Under the pieces are notes generated by a model. The model was not told where the DNA came from. It made no database searches and saw only the letters and a program-made list of their open reading frames with translations. This document shows, one piece after another, positions 54,610-63,402 of a stretch of DNA of 64,000 nucleotides. Source of the stretch: an uncultured Chryseobacterium sp. Its GTDB lineage: Bacteria; Bacteroidota; Bacteroidia; Flavobacteriales; Weeksellaceae. The stretch spans positions 1 through 64,000 of the forward strand of contig CAJYXJ010000004.1 of NCBI GenBank assembly GCA_913778085.1, read 5' to 3'. The position numbers and the translations under genes are program-made. The stretch's first letter is position 1; each line of letters starts with the position of its first letter.

Positions 54610-55083
54610 ATGCCCAATACCTATATACAGATTTACATTCAGGTTGTTTTTGCTACAAAAGGACGTGACATTAAGATAAGCTCTAATGTCCTTAATGAAA
54701 TAGAAAAATATATTTGTGGAATATTTACAGCTAAGAAACAGAAAGTATTGGCCATTTATGCCAATCCGGATCACATACATATTTTTTTTAGCTATAAAAA
54801 TCTACAAATCACCATTCCAGAGCTAATGAAAACCGTGAAAATAGAGTCTACAAATTTTATTAATGAAAAGAAATTATGTTTAGGGAAATTTTCGTGGCAG
54901 GAAGGATACGGTGCCTTTTCCTATGCTAAAAGCCAGAAAGATAAAGTCGTAAATTATATTTTAAATCAGGAAAAGCATCATTTAAAGAAAAGTTTTAAAG
55001 AAGAATATTTGGAAATGCTAAAAGCTTTTGAAATTGAATTTAAGAATGAATATCTTTTTGAATTTTATGATGGAGGAAGATAG
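54610..55083 (+). CDS. REP-associated tyrosine transposase (RAYT/Y1, IS200-like)
   Basis: A 157-residue Y1 (HUH) single-strand transposase. The first strand is YIQIYIQVVFATKGRD, the HUH motif is NPDHIHIFFSYKN, and the C-terminal helix has FSWQEGYGAFSYAKSQKDKVVNYILNQEKHH with the likely catalytic Tyr. It is surrounded by REP-like palindromes on both sides rather than by IS200 ends, which identifies a RAYT/REP system. The stop codon (TAG 55081-55083) abuts an inverted REP unit. Confidence 0.85.
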   Translation: MPNTYIQIYIQVVFATKGRDIKISSNVLNEIEKYICGIFTAKKQKVLAIYANPDHIHIFFSYKNLQITIPELMKTVKIESTNFINEKKLCLGKFSWQEGYGAFSYAKSQKDKVVNYILNQEKHHLKKSFKEEYLEMLKAFEIEFKNEYLFEFYDGGR

Positions 55084-59421: not shown

Positions 59422-59464
59422 CCGGTTTACGGAAAACCGTAATGAAAATGCTGAAAACCGCAAT
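59422..59464 (+). promoter_or_regulatory. Candidate operator: direct repeats of GAAAACCGYAAT
   Basis: GAAAACCGTAAT (59432-59443) and GAAAACCGCAAT (59453-59464) are 21 bp apart, two helical turns. A facing CCGGTTTAC (59422-59430) adds partial inverted symmetry. The array lies 45-87 bp before the start of the GTPase operon and looks like a binding site for a dimeric or LytTR-type regulator. Confidence 0.45.
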
Positions 59465-59508
59465 ACCTTGCCGAAGTAAAAAAGAATTTAAAAACAAGAC
59501 TTTTAACT

Positions 59509-60540
59509 ATGAATACAAAAATTACGGTAACCGACCTCTTTCTCGGTATTTTAGCTGTAATGCTTATTGGTGTCAGCTTTTACCAGACCTGGATGGGTCT
59601 GCAGCAGATCTTCGGAGGAAGTTCATTTATTGTCGCTTTGGTGCTTTCGCTGATCCTGCTTTTTCTTCTCTGGCAGATCAGGCGTGCAAAATCTACAGGA
59701 GGATCGGCGTCATCGCTGGGCTGGATTTACTTTTTCTTCGCCATCTTCTGCTTTGTAGCAAATTTCAATGCATTGTATACCCGGTTCATGAAAACCGATA
59801 TTTACACCACCGAGCTTCGGGATGTCAATGAAAAATTCACCAGGCTGGAAACGGATGTTGAATCCAAGCTGAATTATTCGGTGCCGGATGCTAAAATTCG
59901 GCAGGCCATAAGAAGCGAACTGAATCTGCTGAAAATCCAGATCAGCGATCCTAAAAACGTTGGGATCGGCCCCGAAGCAAGACAGATCCTGGCAAGAATC
60001 GAGAAAATGATCGGTAAGAAAGTTACTCCGCTTACCCCGGTGAGCGAAACCCCTGAAGGATATGCCGACCTGGCCGACCGGATGGAAGAACAGATTGTCC
60101 AGATGGTCTACAACCTGACGCCCGAAGAGAAAAATCTCATGAGCGACATCAGTAATGCTTCCTTAAAGTGGAACAAAGAAATCCAGAACCTTTTGCAGAT
60201 GACACCGGATGTGATCAATGGGATGGCGCAGGGCCAGATCGATAATTCTCTGACGGAATACAACCGTTTGGGCAGCAAGGCGGAATCGATCCTGGGAAGG
60301 GATAAGCTGAAGTTTGAGCCGGCACATTCCGAAACGCAGGAAGTGGGGAAAATAGGATATGCCTTCAGCCATGCCATCAAAAATTTCGGAATGTTCCCAT
60401 TAGTGGTGCTGGCAGGTTGTATTCTGCTGGACTTCGGGATTATGCTGATTATCCTTTTGATGCCGACGGAAAACAACAGGAATACAGGCCGGAACGAAAG
60501 TATTTTTAACAGCAGACGCAGCGGAAAAACAATAATCTGA
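59509..60540 (+). CDS. Four-helix membrane protein of the GTPase operon
   Basis: A 343-residue protein with transmembrane segments at about 10-30, 37-57, 70-90 and 292-314. The 200-residue middle loop is helical and coiled-coil-like (VNEKFTRLETDVESKL, IRQAIRSELNLLKIQI, MEEQIVQMVYNLTPEEKNLM, SNASLKWNKEIQNLL). No enzymatic motif is seen. It is first in a three-gene operon: the GTPase gene starts 13 nt later and the GAP1-like gene overlaps that. It is probably the membrane anchor or effector of the system, perhaps forming a pore or sensing the envelope. No family is recognised with confidence. Confidence 0.65.
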   Translation: MNTKITVTDLFLGILAVMLIGVSFYQTWMGLQQIFGGSSFIVALVLSLILLFLLWQIRRAKSTGGSASSLGWIYFFFAIFCFVANFNALYTRFMKTDIYTTELRDVNEKFTRLETDVESKLNYSVPDAKIRQAIRSELNLLKIQISDPKNVGIGPEARQILARIEKMIGKKVTPLTPVSETPEGYADLADRMEEQIVQMVYNLTPEEKNLMSDISNASLKWNKEIQNLLQMTPDVINGMAQGQIDNSLTEYNRLGSKAESILGRDKLKFEPAHSETQEVGKIGYAFSHAIKNFGMFPLVVLAGCILLDFGIMLIILLMPTENNRNTGRNESIFNSRRSGKTII

Positions 60541-60553
60541 TAAACGAAAAAGC

Positions 60554-61516
60554 ATGGATTGGAATAACGAACCTCTGAAGCCATTGTCTTTTAATAAAGG
60601 CAGTGAAGCGCTTAAACCTTTTAATTTTGATGATGACGATGCATTAAAGCCGTTGTCCTTAGATGATAAAAAAGAAACCATTGACGATCATTTTGTACCC
60701 ATTGCAAAAGGAAATGTTTCGGAAATCAAGAATAAGGACAGTAATTTTGTTTTCTTTTTCGGAACGGCATCTTCCGGAAAATCGGTGATACTGGCTACTA
60801 TGCTGTATTATCTCCGTTCAACAGCGGGAGTCATCAGGCCGAAAATAGGAACGCCGAATACCGCGGAGGCGGAAAGTCTGCTGTACGATTTTTTCGAGAA
60901 TATCAGCAAAGGCATTTTACCTGCAGGAACCGTCAAGGATCAGGTAACCCGGCTGGATCTGGTTTTTGAACCCAACAATAAATCGAAGAAGGTCAGTCCG
61001 ATCAACCTTACGTTTTTGGAGACTTCAGGAGAAAATCATAATGAAATCAGAAGAGGAGGAAACTATCACAGCAGTATAGAAACTTATCTTTCAGCAAATT
61101 TACCGCTTACGTTTATTATTGTAACAAGCTATGAAAATGCCCATAAGGATGATATCCTGATTAATACTTTCCTGAATAAACTTGAAAAATATGAGAAGCG
61201 ATTACGATCCGTCAATATTATTCTGGTCATTTCAAAATGGGATAAATCCGGAAGGACAGAAGTAGAGGATTCCACACAGCTGGACGATTTTATCAGGGAA
61301 AGGCTTCCGATGACTTCCACTGCCATGGATACCTACAGCCTGGCCAAAACATTTTATACCGTAGGCGAACTGAATGAGGATACAAACAGGGTAAGCTTAC
61401 TGAATCTTGACCGGGCCCAGAAGTTATCGGAATGGCTCTATGAAAGCATTTCTGGGTATCCGTTATATTACGAAGGGACTTTCTGGGAGCGTATAAAATT
61501 TAGTTTTACCAATTGA
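60554..61516 (+). CDS. P-loop GTPase of a conflict-type operon
   Basis: A 320-residue cytosolic protein. The N terminus (8-38) repeats an LKP motif three times (LKPLSF, LKPFNF, LKPLSL) in an acidic, disordered context. The GTPase-like domain follows: Walker A FFGTASSGKS (70-77), a G3-like LETSGE (155-160) with Glu instead of Asp, hydrophobic strand LPLTFIIVTSYENAHKDD, and strand IILVISKWDKSG whose SKWD (227-230) resembles the G4 [NT]KxD base-specificity motif. This fits the TRAFAC-like 'DO-GTPase' type described in predicted NTP-dependent conflict systems. The family label is inferred from motifs and neighbours. Confidence 0.65.
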   Translation: MDWNNEPLKPLSFNKGSEALKPFNFDDDDALKPLSLDDKKETIDDHFVPIAKGNVSEIKNKDSNFVFFFGTASSGKSVILATMLYYLRSTAGVIRPKIGTPNTAEAESLLYDFFENISKGILPAGTVKDQVTRLDLVFEPNNKSKKVSPINLTFLETSGENHNEIRRGGNYHSSIETYLSANLPLTFIIVTSYENAHKDDILINTFLNKLEKYEKRLRSVNIILVISKWDKSGRTEVEDSTQLDDFIRERLPMTSTAMDTYSLAKTFYTVGELNEDTNRVSLLNLDRAQKLSEWLYESISGYPLYYEGTFWERIKFSFTN

Positions 61517-62880
61517 TGAGCAGTGTTAATTTAATCGCCTTCGGAACATTCGGAAATCCCAATGGGTTTACCCAGACCTTTTTTGCAGGAAATCCGCTTT
61601 CCGTAAAAACATTTGATATCAGGGGTTCTATACTCGTTTATCCGGAAAGTACGTTATATTCGATCCGTAAAGAATATAAAGACGGAGCTTTCATGGTTTC
61701 TTATGCGGTGTACACCTATGCAAAAGAACCGACTTCTGCAAGGGAAGGATCCTTTATCGGATCTGCCATCCTGTTTATCGATGAAATTGCGGAAGAAAAT
61801 ATCACCATCCGTTGCCTGAATGAGTTTCACGAAAACCTGATCGGCAAAAACGTCGAGAACGACACACTTTCGGTTAATCATTCAGATAACTTTTTAGTAA
61901 GTAAACTCTCTGATTTTGATAAAGTTAGATTTAATCTGAAGAAAATCAATACGCTGGATGCTGCTGAAATCACCAACAAACAGTTAATGGTTTATTGTGA
62001 AACGAATCCTTCCGCGTTACAGCCGATGTTCAAAAGATCCCTCGATTTGCTGAATGTGTATGATACGATTTATTTTACCTCGAATCAGGAAGTCGCAAAA
62101 CTTGTCCACCAGAAAAACATATTCCAGTTTGTTCAGAAAGACGGGTTTGAAAATGAAATCGGGAAGTTGGCGGAAGAAAGGAAAAGGAAGATTCAGGAGG
62201 CAATTGCAGAGTTTGAGAAGGAAAAAATAAGGCTGCAAGATGCTGAAAAGCAGACCCAAGAAGATTTTAAATCTAAAATTGAAAAGAACAAACAACAGCA
62301 TGCGGCAAACGGTGAAAAAATTGCAGCGTCTGAAAGAAATCTGGCCAGGATCAATGAAATCTATCAGGCATTTTCCAGGAAGATTGATGAGCTTTTAAGC
62401 CGCTTAAAAATGGCTGACAGTGATGCATTACCGGGAATCAGGCAAGCCTATAATCAGAACAGAAGTATTTTTACGGAACAGATGAGGGATCTGAAAATAC
62501 CTGACCTTGGAATGGTTTCCGATCCAAGACCGGCATCCAGGCCGGAACCTTTCACGCAACTGGGACATCAGTCTTACCGTTATGGAAGGGAACAAAACGA
62601 AAGTAAGGATCAGCTGGATCCTTTTAAAATTGCAACCGTCGTTTTGTCCGTCCTGTTAGCGGCTGCAATTTCCGGTTTGGGATGGCTTTACTGGGAACAT
62701 TACGAGAAAGAACAGCAGGCCGTTGCTGAACAGGGCTACAACCAAATTAACCAAAATAGATCTGAACAGGATACCGTTTCCACAATCCTGGTGAAGGATT
62801 CAGGACGGGGCATTCGTTCCGAATCTAATAAACAAGTTGAATCACACATTAAAAGTGATATTAATACAAATTTAAAATAG
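61516..62880 (+). CDS. GAP1-N-like coiled-coil membrane protein
   Basis: A 454-residue protein. It starts at ATG 61516, overlapping the stop of the GTPase gene by 1 nt (TGATG), so the two are translationally coupled. Residues 1-190 form a globular domain beginning NLIAFGTFGNPNGFTQTFFAGNP and SVKTFDIRGSILVYPESTLYSIRKEY, which resembles the GAP1-N1 domain of GTPase-centred conflict systems. A coiled coil follows (about 210-300), then a P/Q-rich linker, one transmembrane helix (about 375-393, VVLSVLLAAAISGLGWLYW) and a polar tail. It probably links the GTPase to the membrane. Confidence 0.62.
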   Translation: MSSVNLIAFGTFGNPNGFTQTFFAGNPLSVKTFDIRGSILVYPESTLYSIRKEYKDGAFMVSYAVYTYAKEPTSAREGSFIGSAILFIDEIAEENITIRCLNEFHENLIGKNVENDTLSVNHSDNFLVSKLSDFDKVRFNLKKINTLDAAEITNKQLMVYCETNPSALQPMFKRSLDLLNVYDTIYFTSNQEVAKLVHQKNIFQFVQKDGFENEIGKLAEERKRKIQEAIAEFEKEKIRLQDAEKQTQEDFKSKIEKNKQQHAANGEKIAASERNLARINEIYQAFSRKIDELLSRLKMADSDALPGIRQAYNQNRSIFTEQMRDLKIPDLGMVSDPRPASRPEPFTQLGHQSYRYGREQNESKDQLDPFKIATVVLSVLLAAAISGLGWLYWEHYEKEQQAVAEQGYNQINQNRSEQDTVSTILVKDSGRGIRSESNKQVESHIKSDINTNLK

Positions 62881-63018
62881 AAACTTTAATCCTATTTACA
62901 TCGGTGATTGGCAATATATTCTCCTGTTTTGGTTAAAAGAATTGTTTTGTAAATTTAGAAAGCCGTAACTTTAAACTGATGAAAACTCGCGAAAAGTTGT
63001 ACTTTCTGGGCAATAAAA

Positions 63019-63402
63019 ATGAAAAAAGAAAATAATAAACAAAAAATGACGGTCATCAATGGCCGTCATTTTTCAGATCTGGAAGGATTCTACGAAGAAG
63101 TTTCCCGGCTCCTGATGAAAGACGAAGACTGGAAAGTAGGGACACTGGACGGTTTTGATGATATCCTCTACGGATTCCAGGGCCAAATTACCTGGAAAGA
63201 TTCTCAGAAGTCCCGTGAAGATCTAGGATTGGATCAGACCAAAGAATTCTATGAAAAGAAAATCAGGCAGGGAAAACCGTTTAATGTGGTGTTGATCCAA
63301 CAGAAACTGGATGAACTGACGACAGGAAGAGGACAAACCCTATTTGAAATTTTATTGGACGTTATACGATCCCATAAAAAGATTACGCTAATTTTGGACT
63401 GA
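63019..63402 (+). CDS. Barstar-like protein
   Basis: A barstar-family (PF01337) protein. The core reads VINGRHFSDLEGFYEEVSRLL, WKVGTLDGFDDILYGFQG, ITWKDSQKSREDLG, ending LDVIRSHKKITLILD, which is the barstar order. Barstars inhibit barnase-type RNases. No barnase or other toxin gene is adjacent, so it may be an orphan inhibitor. The ATG at 63019 gives 127 residues; ATG 63046 (MTVINGRHF, 118 residues) fits the family length better but lies inside a terminator-like hairpin. Confidence 0.8.
   Translation: MKKENNKQKMTVINGRHFSDLEGFYEEVSRLLMKDEDWKVGTLDGFDDILYGFQGQITWKDSQKSREDLGLDQTKEFYEKKIRQGKPFNVVLIQQKLDELTTGRGQTLFEILLDVIRSHKKITLILD
63044..63073 (+). terminator. Terminator-like hairpin at the start of the barstar-like gene
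   Basis: AAATGACGG (63044-63052) pairs with CCGTCATTT (63063-63071), followed by T's to 63073. It lies inside the reading frame, over codons 9-18 or over the start if ATG 63046 is used. Confidence 0.55.

Follow-up and report, generated by a model that had tools for sequence, protein, structure and literature searches.

A patchily distributed three-gene cassette of Bacteroidota encodes a predicted membrane-bound module around a divergent DO-GTPase1

We analyzed a window of 64,000 nucleotides from an uncultured Chryseobacterium sp. (GenBank assembly GCA_913778085.1, contig CAJYXJ010000004.1, positions 1 to 64,000), and describe here a cassette of three adjacent genes, named A, B, and C, that encode a membrane protein, a GTPase, and a protein with a coiled coil. 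Judging from sequence comparisons, the cassette is a patchily spread, membrane-bound GTPase module and a divergent relative of the DO-GTPase systems. We further propose, with a confidence that falls just short of even, that in Bacteroidota it works as a trans-envelope GTPase switch subject to horizontal exchange, by the full mechanism laid out below.

The three genes lie on the + strand of the window. Gene A (59509..60540, 343 residues) is followed after 13 nucleotides by gene B (60554..61516, 320 residues), and gene C (61513..62880) starts at 61513 (TTG) or 61516 (ATG), which gives a protein of 455 or 454 residues. A previous reading of these letters without database searches, hereafter the sequence-only reading, had proposed a three-gene operon with a 13-nucleotide gap and a 1-nucleotide overlap. 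The coordinates agree, since the stop codon of B (TGA, 61514-61516) overlaps the ATG of C by 1 nucleotide, or its TTG by 4. The operon is thus real, but the start given for it, 59422, lies upstream of gene A. The motifs pointed out at the time are all present in the sequence: the Walker A GTASSGKS of B (60761..60784), its Walker B/G3 TFLETSGE with a Glu in place of Asp (61010..61033), its G4-like SKWD (61232..61243), and FGTFGNPNGF at residues 10-19 of C.

Profile comparisons identify B as a divergent DO-GTPase1. The window protein scores 21.1 bits against the Pfam family DO-GTPase1 (PF19975), under the cut-off of 27 bits. All 29 close homologues match this family at E<=0.1 (best 4e-7), and the distant homologue L129 clears the cut-off with 31.6 bits. 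A profile-profile comparison gave E 2e-14 (probability 98) against a reference set of nine DO-GTPase1 proteins, seven from plasmid records and two from genomes, versus 1.4e-7 against their zinc-ribbon-bearing (ZnR) partners. FLE is found in 14 of 15 aligned B proteins, with a GE after it in 12 of the 15, and one or the other of these glutamates would be the conserved Walker B glutamate of DO-GTPase1. The B protein of L128 shows a weak match to Gtr1/RagA (E 0.0014, below the cut-off of that family). The acidic N-terminal extension of B holds the repeats LKPLSF, LKPFNF, and LKPLSL (60575..60661). The repeated LKP motif noticed earlier is thus there in three copies, but it is not general: of 68 B homologues, a permissive pattern picks out one or more copies in 57 and none in 11.

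The product of gene C consists of a predicted longin-like N-domain (residues 1-143, 61513..61941), an alpha/beta domain, a coiled coil (residues 209-326, 62137..62490), one membrane helix (62623..62679), and a shortened periplasmic tail. The structural model is that of a long relative, L070, rather than of the window protein; the predicted local distance difference test (pLDDT) of the N-domain is 80-97 by blocks, and helix alpha1 is missing from the model. Of the ten best VIA-align rows covering residues 1-143, eight are entries with longin/DENN-type subunits and two are of TagF. The former are Lst4 (7.1), FLCN-FNIP2-Rag (6.3), KICSTOR-GATOR1 (5.8 and 5.7), DENND10/Commander (5.3), the FLCN GTPase-activating protein (GAP) complex (5.1), SEA (5.1), and SEAC-EGOC (4.8). 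The latter score 6.0 and 5.4, and C differs from this type VI secretion regulator, with a sequence identity of 8-9%. Arg77 of C (codon 61741..61743) is invariant in the 50 aligned C proteins (50/50) and lies in the modelled beta4-beta5 loop, with strand 59-69 before it and strand 81-89 after it. This is the position where, according to passages of PMC12803157, the GAPs of the DENN family carry their arginine finger, and we regard Arg77 as a candidate arginine finger by position and invariance. A Pfam search, the only one made for it, revealed no DENN domain in C. C may be similar to the proteins that regulate growth-control GTPases in yeast and animals.

Hydropathy shows four membrane segments in A and one in C, as the sequence-only reading had seen, and its view of a membrane-bound system is upheld by these segments. 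A comprises three N-terminal helices, a helical domain of about 200 residues (residues 93-290, 59785..60378), a fourth helix, and a basic tail (60460..60537) ending in GKTII (model pLDDT 77). Because the loop between helices 2 and 3 is rich in Arg and Lys and the C-tail is basic, the positive-inside rule predicts that the domain between helices 3 and 4 is periplasmic and that the tail is cytoplasmic. Between loci L093 and L095, this domain is 64% identical and the coiled coil of C 72%, versus 93% for the GTPase, a contrast that suggests a swap of the sensor part of A.

The distribution of the cassette is patchy. B was found in 29 of 118 relatives (including the genome of the window), all from one genus and each with a single B match (29/29), and in 9 of 395 genomes sampled across the phylum. 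A scan of genome contigs, some of them from metagenome bins, retrieved 63 cassette loci in Chryseobacterium, Epilithonimonas, Kaistella, Halpernia, Flavobacterium, Pedobacter, Chitinophagaceae, Dyadobacter, Flectobacillus, Emticicia, Rhodonellum, Saprospiraceae, and others. Since A, B, and C are adjacent in 62 of these (the exception, L067, starts at B), their clustering exceeds chance and, on this comparison of loci, the three genes form one unit. C is cut by contig ends in L061 and L094. In the two Niabella loci, L116 and L121, B and C are split over several frames with a nuclease gene after them, perhaps by decay or sequencing errors. L150 and L151 likewise hold A and B with a C-like third gene; their B is 21-25% identical to the other aligned sequences. 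We found neither a housekeeping family for B nor a pan-Flavobacteriia distribution, two outcomes that the sequence-only reading had named as contrary to its proposal.

The genomic sites are informative on gain and loss. Gene C is followed in the window by a gene (63019-63402) with a weak resemblance to barstar (Pfam E 0.024, below cut-off), a homologue of which is present in 64 of 70 genomes of the genus. Among 18 cassette-free purL sites, purL and this barstar-like gene are within about 150 bases of each other in 14; because they adjoin in these loci, the cassette appears to have been gained or lost between purL and this common neighbour. The other four (L207, L215, L217, L221) have 2 to 3.3 kb of different DNA, and seven of the 18 genomes carry the cassette elsewhere. 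By eye, the inserts in L207 and L217 look like a sigma-factor-like operon, and that of L215 contains two other genes. Upstream of purL, the window has at 54610-55083 what we take, from its appearance, to be a small IS200/REP-type transposase. The tree of B has 13 changes of family label, for a minimum of 9 and a shuffled mean of 20.5. Although quickly built and containing several long branches, it indicates that B largely clusters by family, with some exchange.

Sequence comparison also indicates that the cassette was exchanged between distant lineages in at least one strain, L102. In 200-base windows, the DNA of L102 is 78-94% identical to that of the window strain over purL, the greater part of A, and the barstar-like gene, but only 52-68% identical between the tail of A and about C residue 150, a stretch that includes B. 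Past this residue, the identity is 71-83% to the window and 73-87% to L059, up to the variable end of C. The B of L102 groups with those of Pedobacter and Dyadobacter (support 100). Around 6500-8000 of L102, the A tail, B, and the C N-domain look replaced by a Pedobacter/Dyadobacter-type allele within a conserved Chryseobacterium locus. What differs jointly is thus the cytoplasmic tail of A together with B and the longin-like N-domain, parts that would be expected to be in contact. Over 58 cassettes, the distances of B correlate at 0.82 with those of the C N-domain, 0.71-0.77 with parts of A, and 0.68 with the coiled coil. The distances of B thus follow those of the C N-domain somewhat more closely than those of other parts, by modest margins that are owed in part to shared ancestry. 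Of all parts measured, the coiled coil diverges most (mean distance 0.675 vs 0.272 for the GTPase).

Exported enzymes are sometimes encoded behind the cassette. A retropepsin-like lipoprotein is found in 12 of the 63 loci, -17 to 10 bases from the end of C (one with a Pfam gag-asp_proteas match at E 8e-15), and an SNase-domain nuclease in 11, at most 1.5 kb behind C (one at E 5e-23), so that 19 loci have one or the other. Both families carry export signals. The enzymes accompany 17 of 30 loci with a long C versus none of 29 with a short one (Fisher 6e-7, uncorrected for kinship), and the remaining two of the 19 are L116 and L121, with a broken C. The motif CxHPE occurs within the first 45 residues of 15 out of 1019 open reading frames, namely all 12 proteases and 3 of the 11 nucleases, and nothing else. 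In the 118 relatives, the protease query gave one match in the genus, beside its cassette, and another genome matched twice at 30% identity. The nuclease query gave seven matches with identities from 62% upward, each on a contig that carries a cassette and within about 4 kb of B; a commoner nuclease, about 40% identical to the query, is scattered over the genus. The distant genome G330 has the order A, B, C-like gene, DUF805 protein, and lipoprotein protease without CxHPE, and the genes of G507 follow in that order too, with the protease frame shorter and close to the contig end. The DUF805 membrane protein (L151:3987-4661) separates the C-like gene from the lipoprotein protease in G330 and, by position, in G507. 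Small exported-looking proteins with the pattern YH...CRGL..C are encoded behind the cassette at L064:12661-12879, L097:10283-10537, and L107:11127-11336, and upstream of it at L116:1748-1954.

The copy in the window has neither the retropepsin-like protease nor the SNase nuclease downstream. Its C stops shortly beyond the membrane helix, and a possible remnant of the end of the long-C periplasmic domain lies past the stop, outside the open frame (62879..62929; a weak similarity of 47% over 17 residues, E 0.15); the same remnant is clearer in the relative L060 (67% over 18 residues, E 3e-4). Because of this early end and the possible remnant, we consider that the window C has probably lost its periplasmic domain, leaving a reduced, core-only form.

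In the switch that we propose, A would sense a periplasmic signal through its helical domain, and its cytoplasmic tail, together with the N-terminal extension of B, would hold B at the inner membrane. The N-domain of C would be a longin-type GTPase-activating domain whose Arg77 enters the active site of B and ends the signal, and the coiled coil and membrane helix of C would relay the nucleotide state of B to the periplasm. Where C is long, its periplasmic domain would act on exported effectors whose genes come next: a retropepsin lipoprotein and a nuclease that is either secreted or a lipoprotein, many of them with the common CxHPE leader. The core-only copy of the window would rely on the membrane complex alone for signalling, or would use effectors whose genes lie elsewhere. 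Two points slightly lower our confidence in the full mechanism: the longin/DENN subunits in the structural comparison were assigned from entry titles and chain lengths, not chain by chain, and one partial nuclease match of 61% identity occurs in G026, a genome without B.

The export signals of both enzyme families would also suit an envelope-stress module, in which A and C sense inner-membrane or cell-wall damage, or osmotic stress, and the GTPase acts as a gate for exported proteases by which the envelope is remodelled. In Pseudomonas, osmotic tolerance requires secreted retropepsin-like proteases, which also affect cell shape, in the account given in part of PMC12239564, and sections of PMC11237479 place a DO-GTPase in some PspFABC operons and predict a role of the family in membrane-related stress. 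However, a nuclease is not an obvious tool against envelope stress, 13 of the 30 long-C loci and all 29 short-C loci have neither enzyme, and the cassette is patchy within one genus. We find this explanation unlikely.

Patchiness, empty sites, a fast-diverging C, nuclease or protease neighbours, and the DO-GTPase1-like B would fit a role against phage or other invaders, with the cassette belonging, in membrane-bound form, to the published DO-GTPase1/GAP1-N1 conflict systems; by eye, C and GAP1-N1 also share the order G-x-N/D-G ... R-x-G. Yet the GAP1-N-like nature that the sequence-only reading gave to the third protein was not recovered: GAP1-N1 (PF20012) has no match in the genome of the window nor in 10 diverse C N-domains, and the profile comparison of C with GAP1-N1 is no better than chance, being equalled by 22 of 200 shuffles, although the two may share a fold. 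A, B, and C have no Pfam match to GASH (alignment E 0.57 for A and 0.15 for C), and C has none to GAP1-M or GAP1-C, whose profiles were not searched individually. A second, zinc-ribbon DO-GTPase was not found, as there is one B per genome in the 29 positive relatives and one per operon, the single B of L116 and L121 being in broken pieces. The conflict role suggested earlier also loses ground because defence genes are not clearly enriched among the cassette neighbours, and a search of 72,556 plasmid and 50,697 phage records gave no match to B at E<=1e-3. This makes the conflict explanation quite improbable. A regulator of polarity or surface motility would have a precedent in the bacterial GTPase-GAP pair MglA/MglB of Myxococcus (described in passages of PMC9481161), but MglB belongs to the roadblock proteins and B lies closest to DO-GTPase1, while the patchiness within one genus and the exported hydrolases make such a role very hard to credit.

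The closest known systems are the DO-GTPase/GAP1-N1 systems (Kaur et al. 2020, PMC7159879), which were described from gene neighbourhoods and share with the cassette the GTPase family, a partner gene just downstream, variable downstream genes, and, in part, membrane segments. In contrast, the cassette has one GTPase instead of two, and no zinc ribbon, GASH, or GAP1-N1 match; its C has a coiled coil, a membrane helix, and a periplasmic domain, no counterpart of A was found, and exported enzymes lie downstream. In the main text of PMC7159879, 'longin' and 'roadblock' appear 0 times and 'arginine' twice, each time for MoxR-like ATPases, so that its authors do not seem to have proposed that GAP1 acts as a GAP. 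The Rlo operon of Pseudomonas, as portrayed in sections of PMC12239564, also combines an exported retropepsin-like protease with a transmembrane protein, but an ATP-grasp protein and an inactive transglutaminase are named there, and no GTPase. The longin GAPs of Rag and Arf GTPases (FLCN-FNIP2, GATOR1, C9orf72-SMCR8; portions of PMC8213707) and the DENN GAPs (portions of PMC12803157) have a predicted fold likeness to C and an arginine at the beta4-beta5 position that is invariant in C, itself the gene partner of a GTPase. C differs from them in being bacterial and membrane-anchored, with no DENN domain seen and helix alpha1 missing from the model. The compact and stable three-gene form, with its invariant candidate arginine finger, makes the question of whether the partner is a GAP testable. 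We regard as doubtful, but worth stating, the wider claim that a bacterial longin-type arginine-finger GAP is paired with a DO-GTPase, that the GTPase-associated GAP1 proteins are literal GAPs with the build of FLCN/NPRL2, which regulate Rag GTPases, and that in Bacteroidota the switch spans the inner membrane and governs exported proteases and nucleases, which often bear the CxHPE tag. If true, the cassette would offer a route for a cytosolic GTPase to control enzymes outside the inner membrane, and a bacterial counterpart of the Rag-GTPase/longin-GAP pair.

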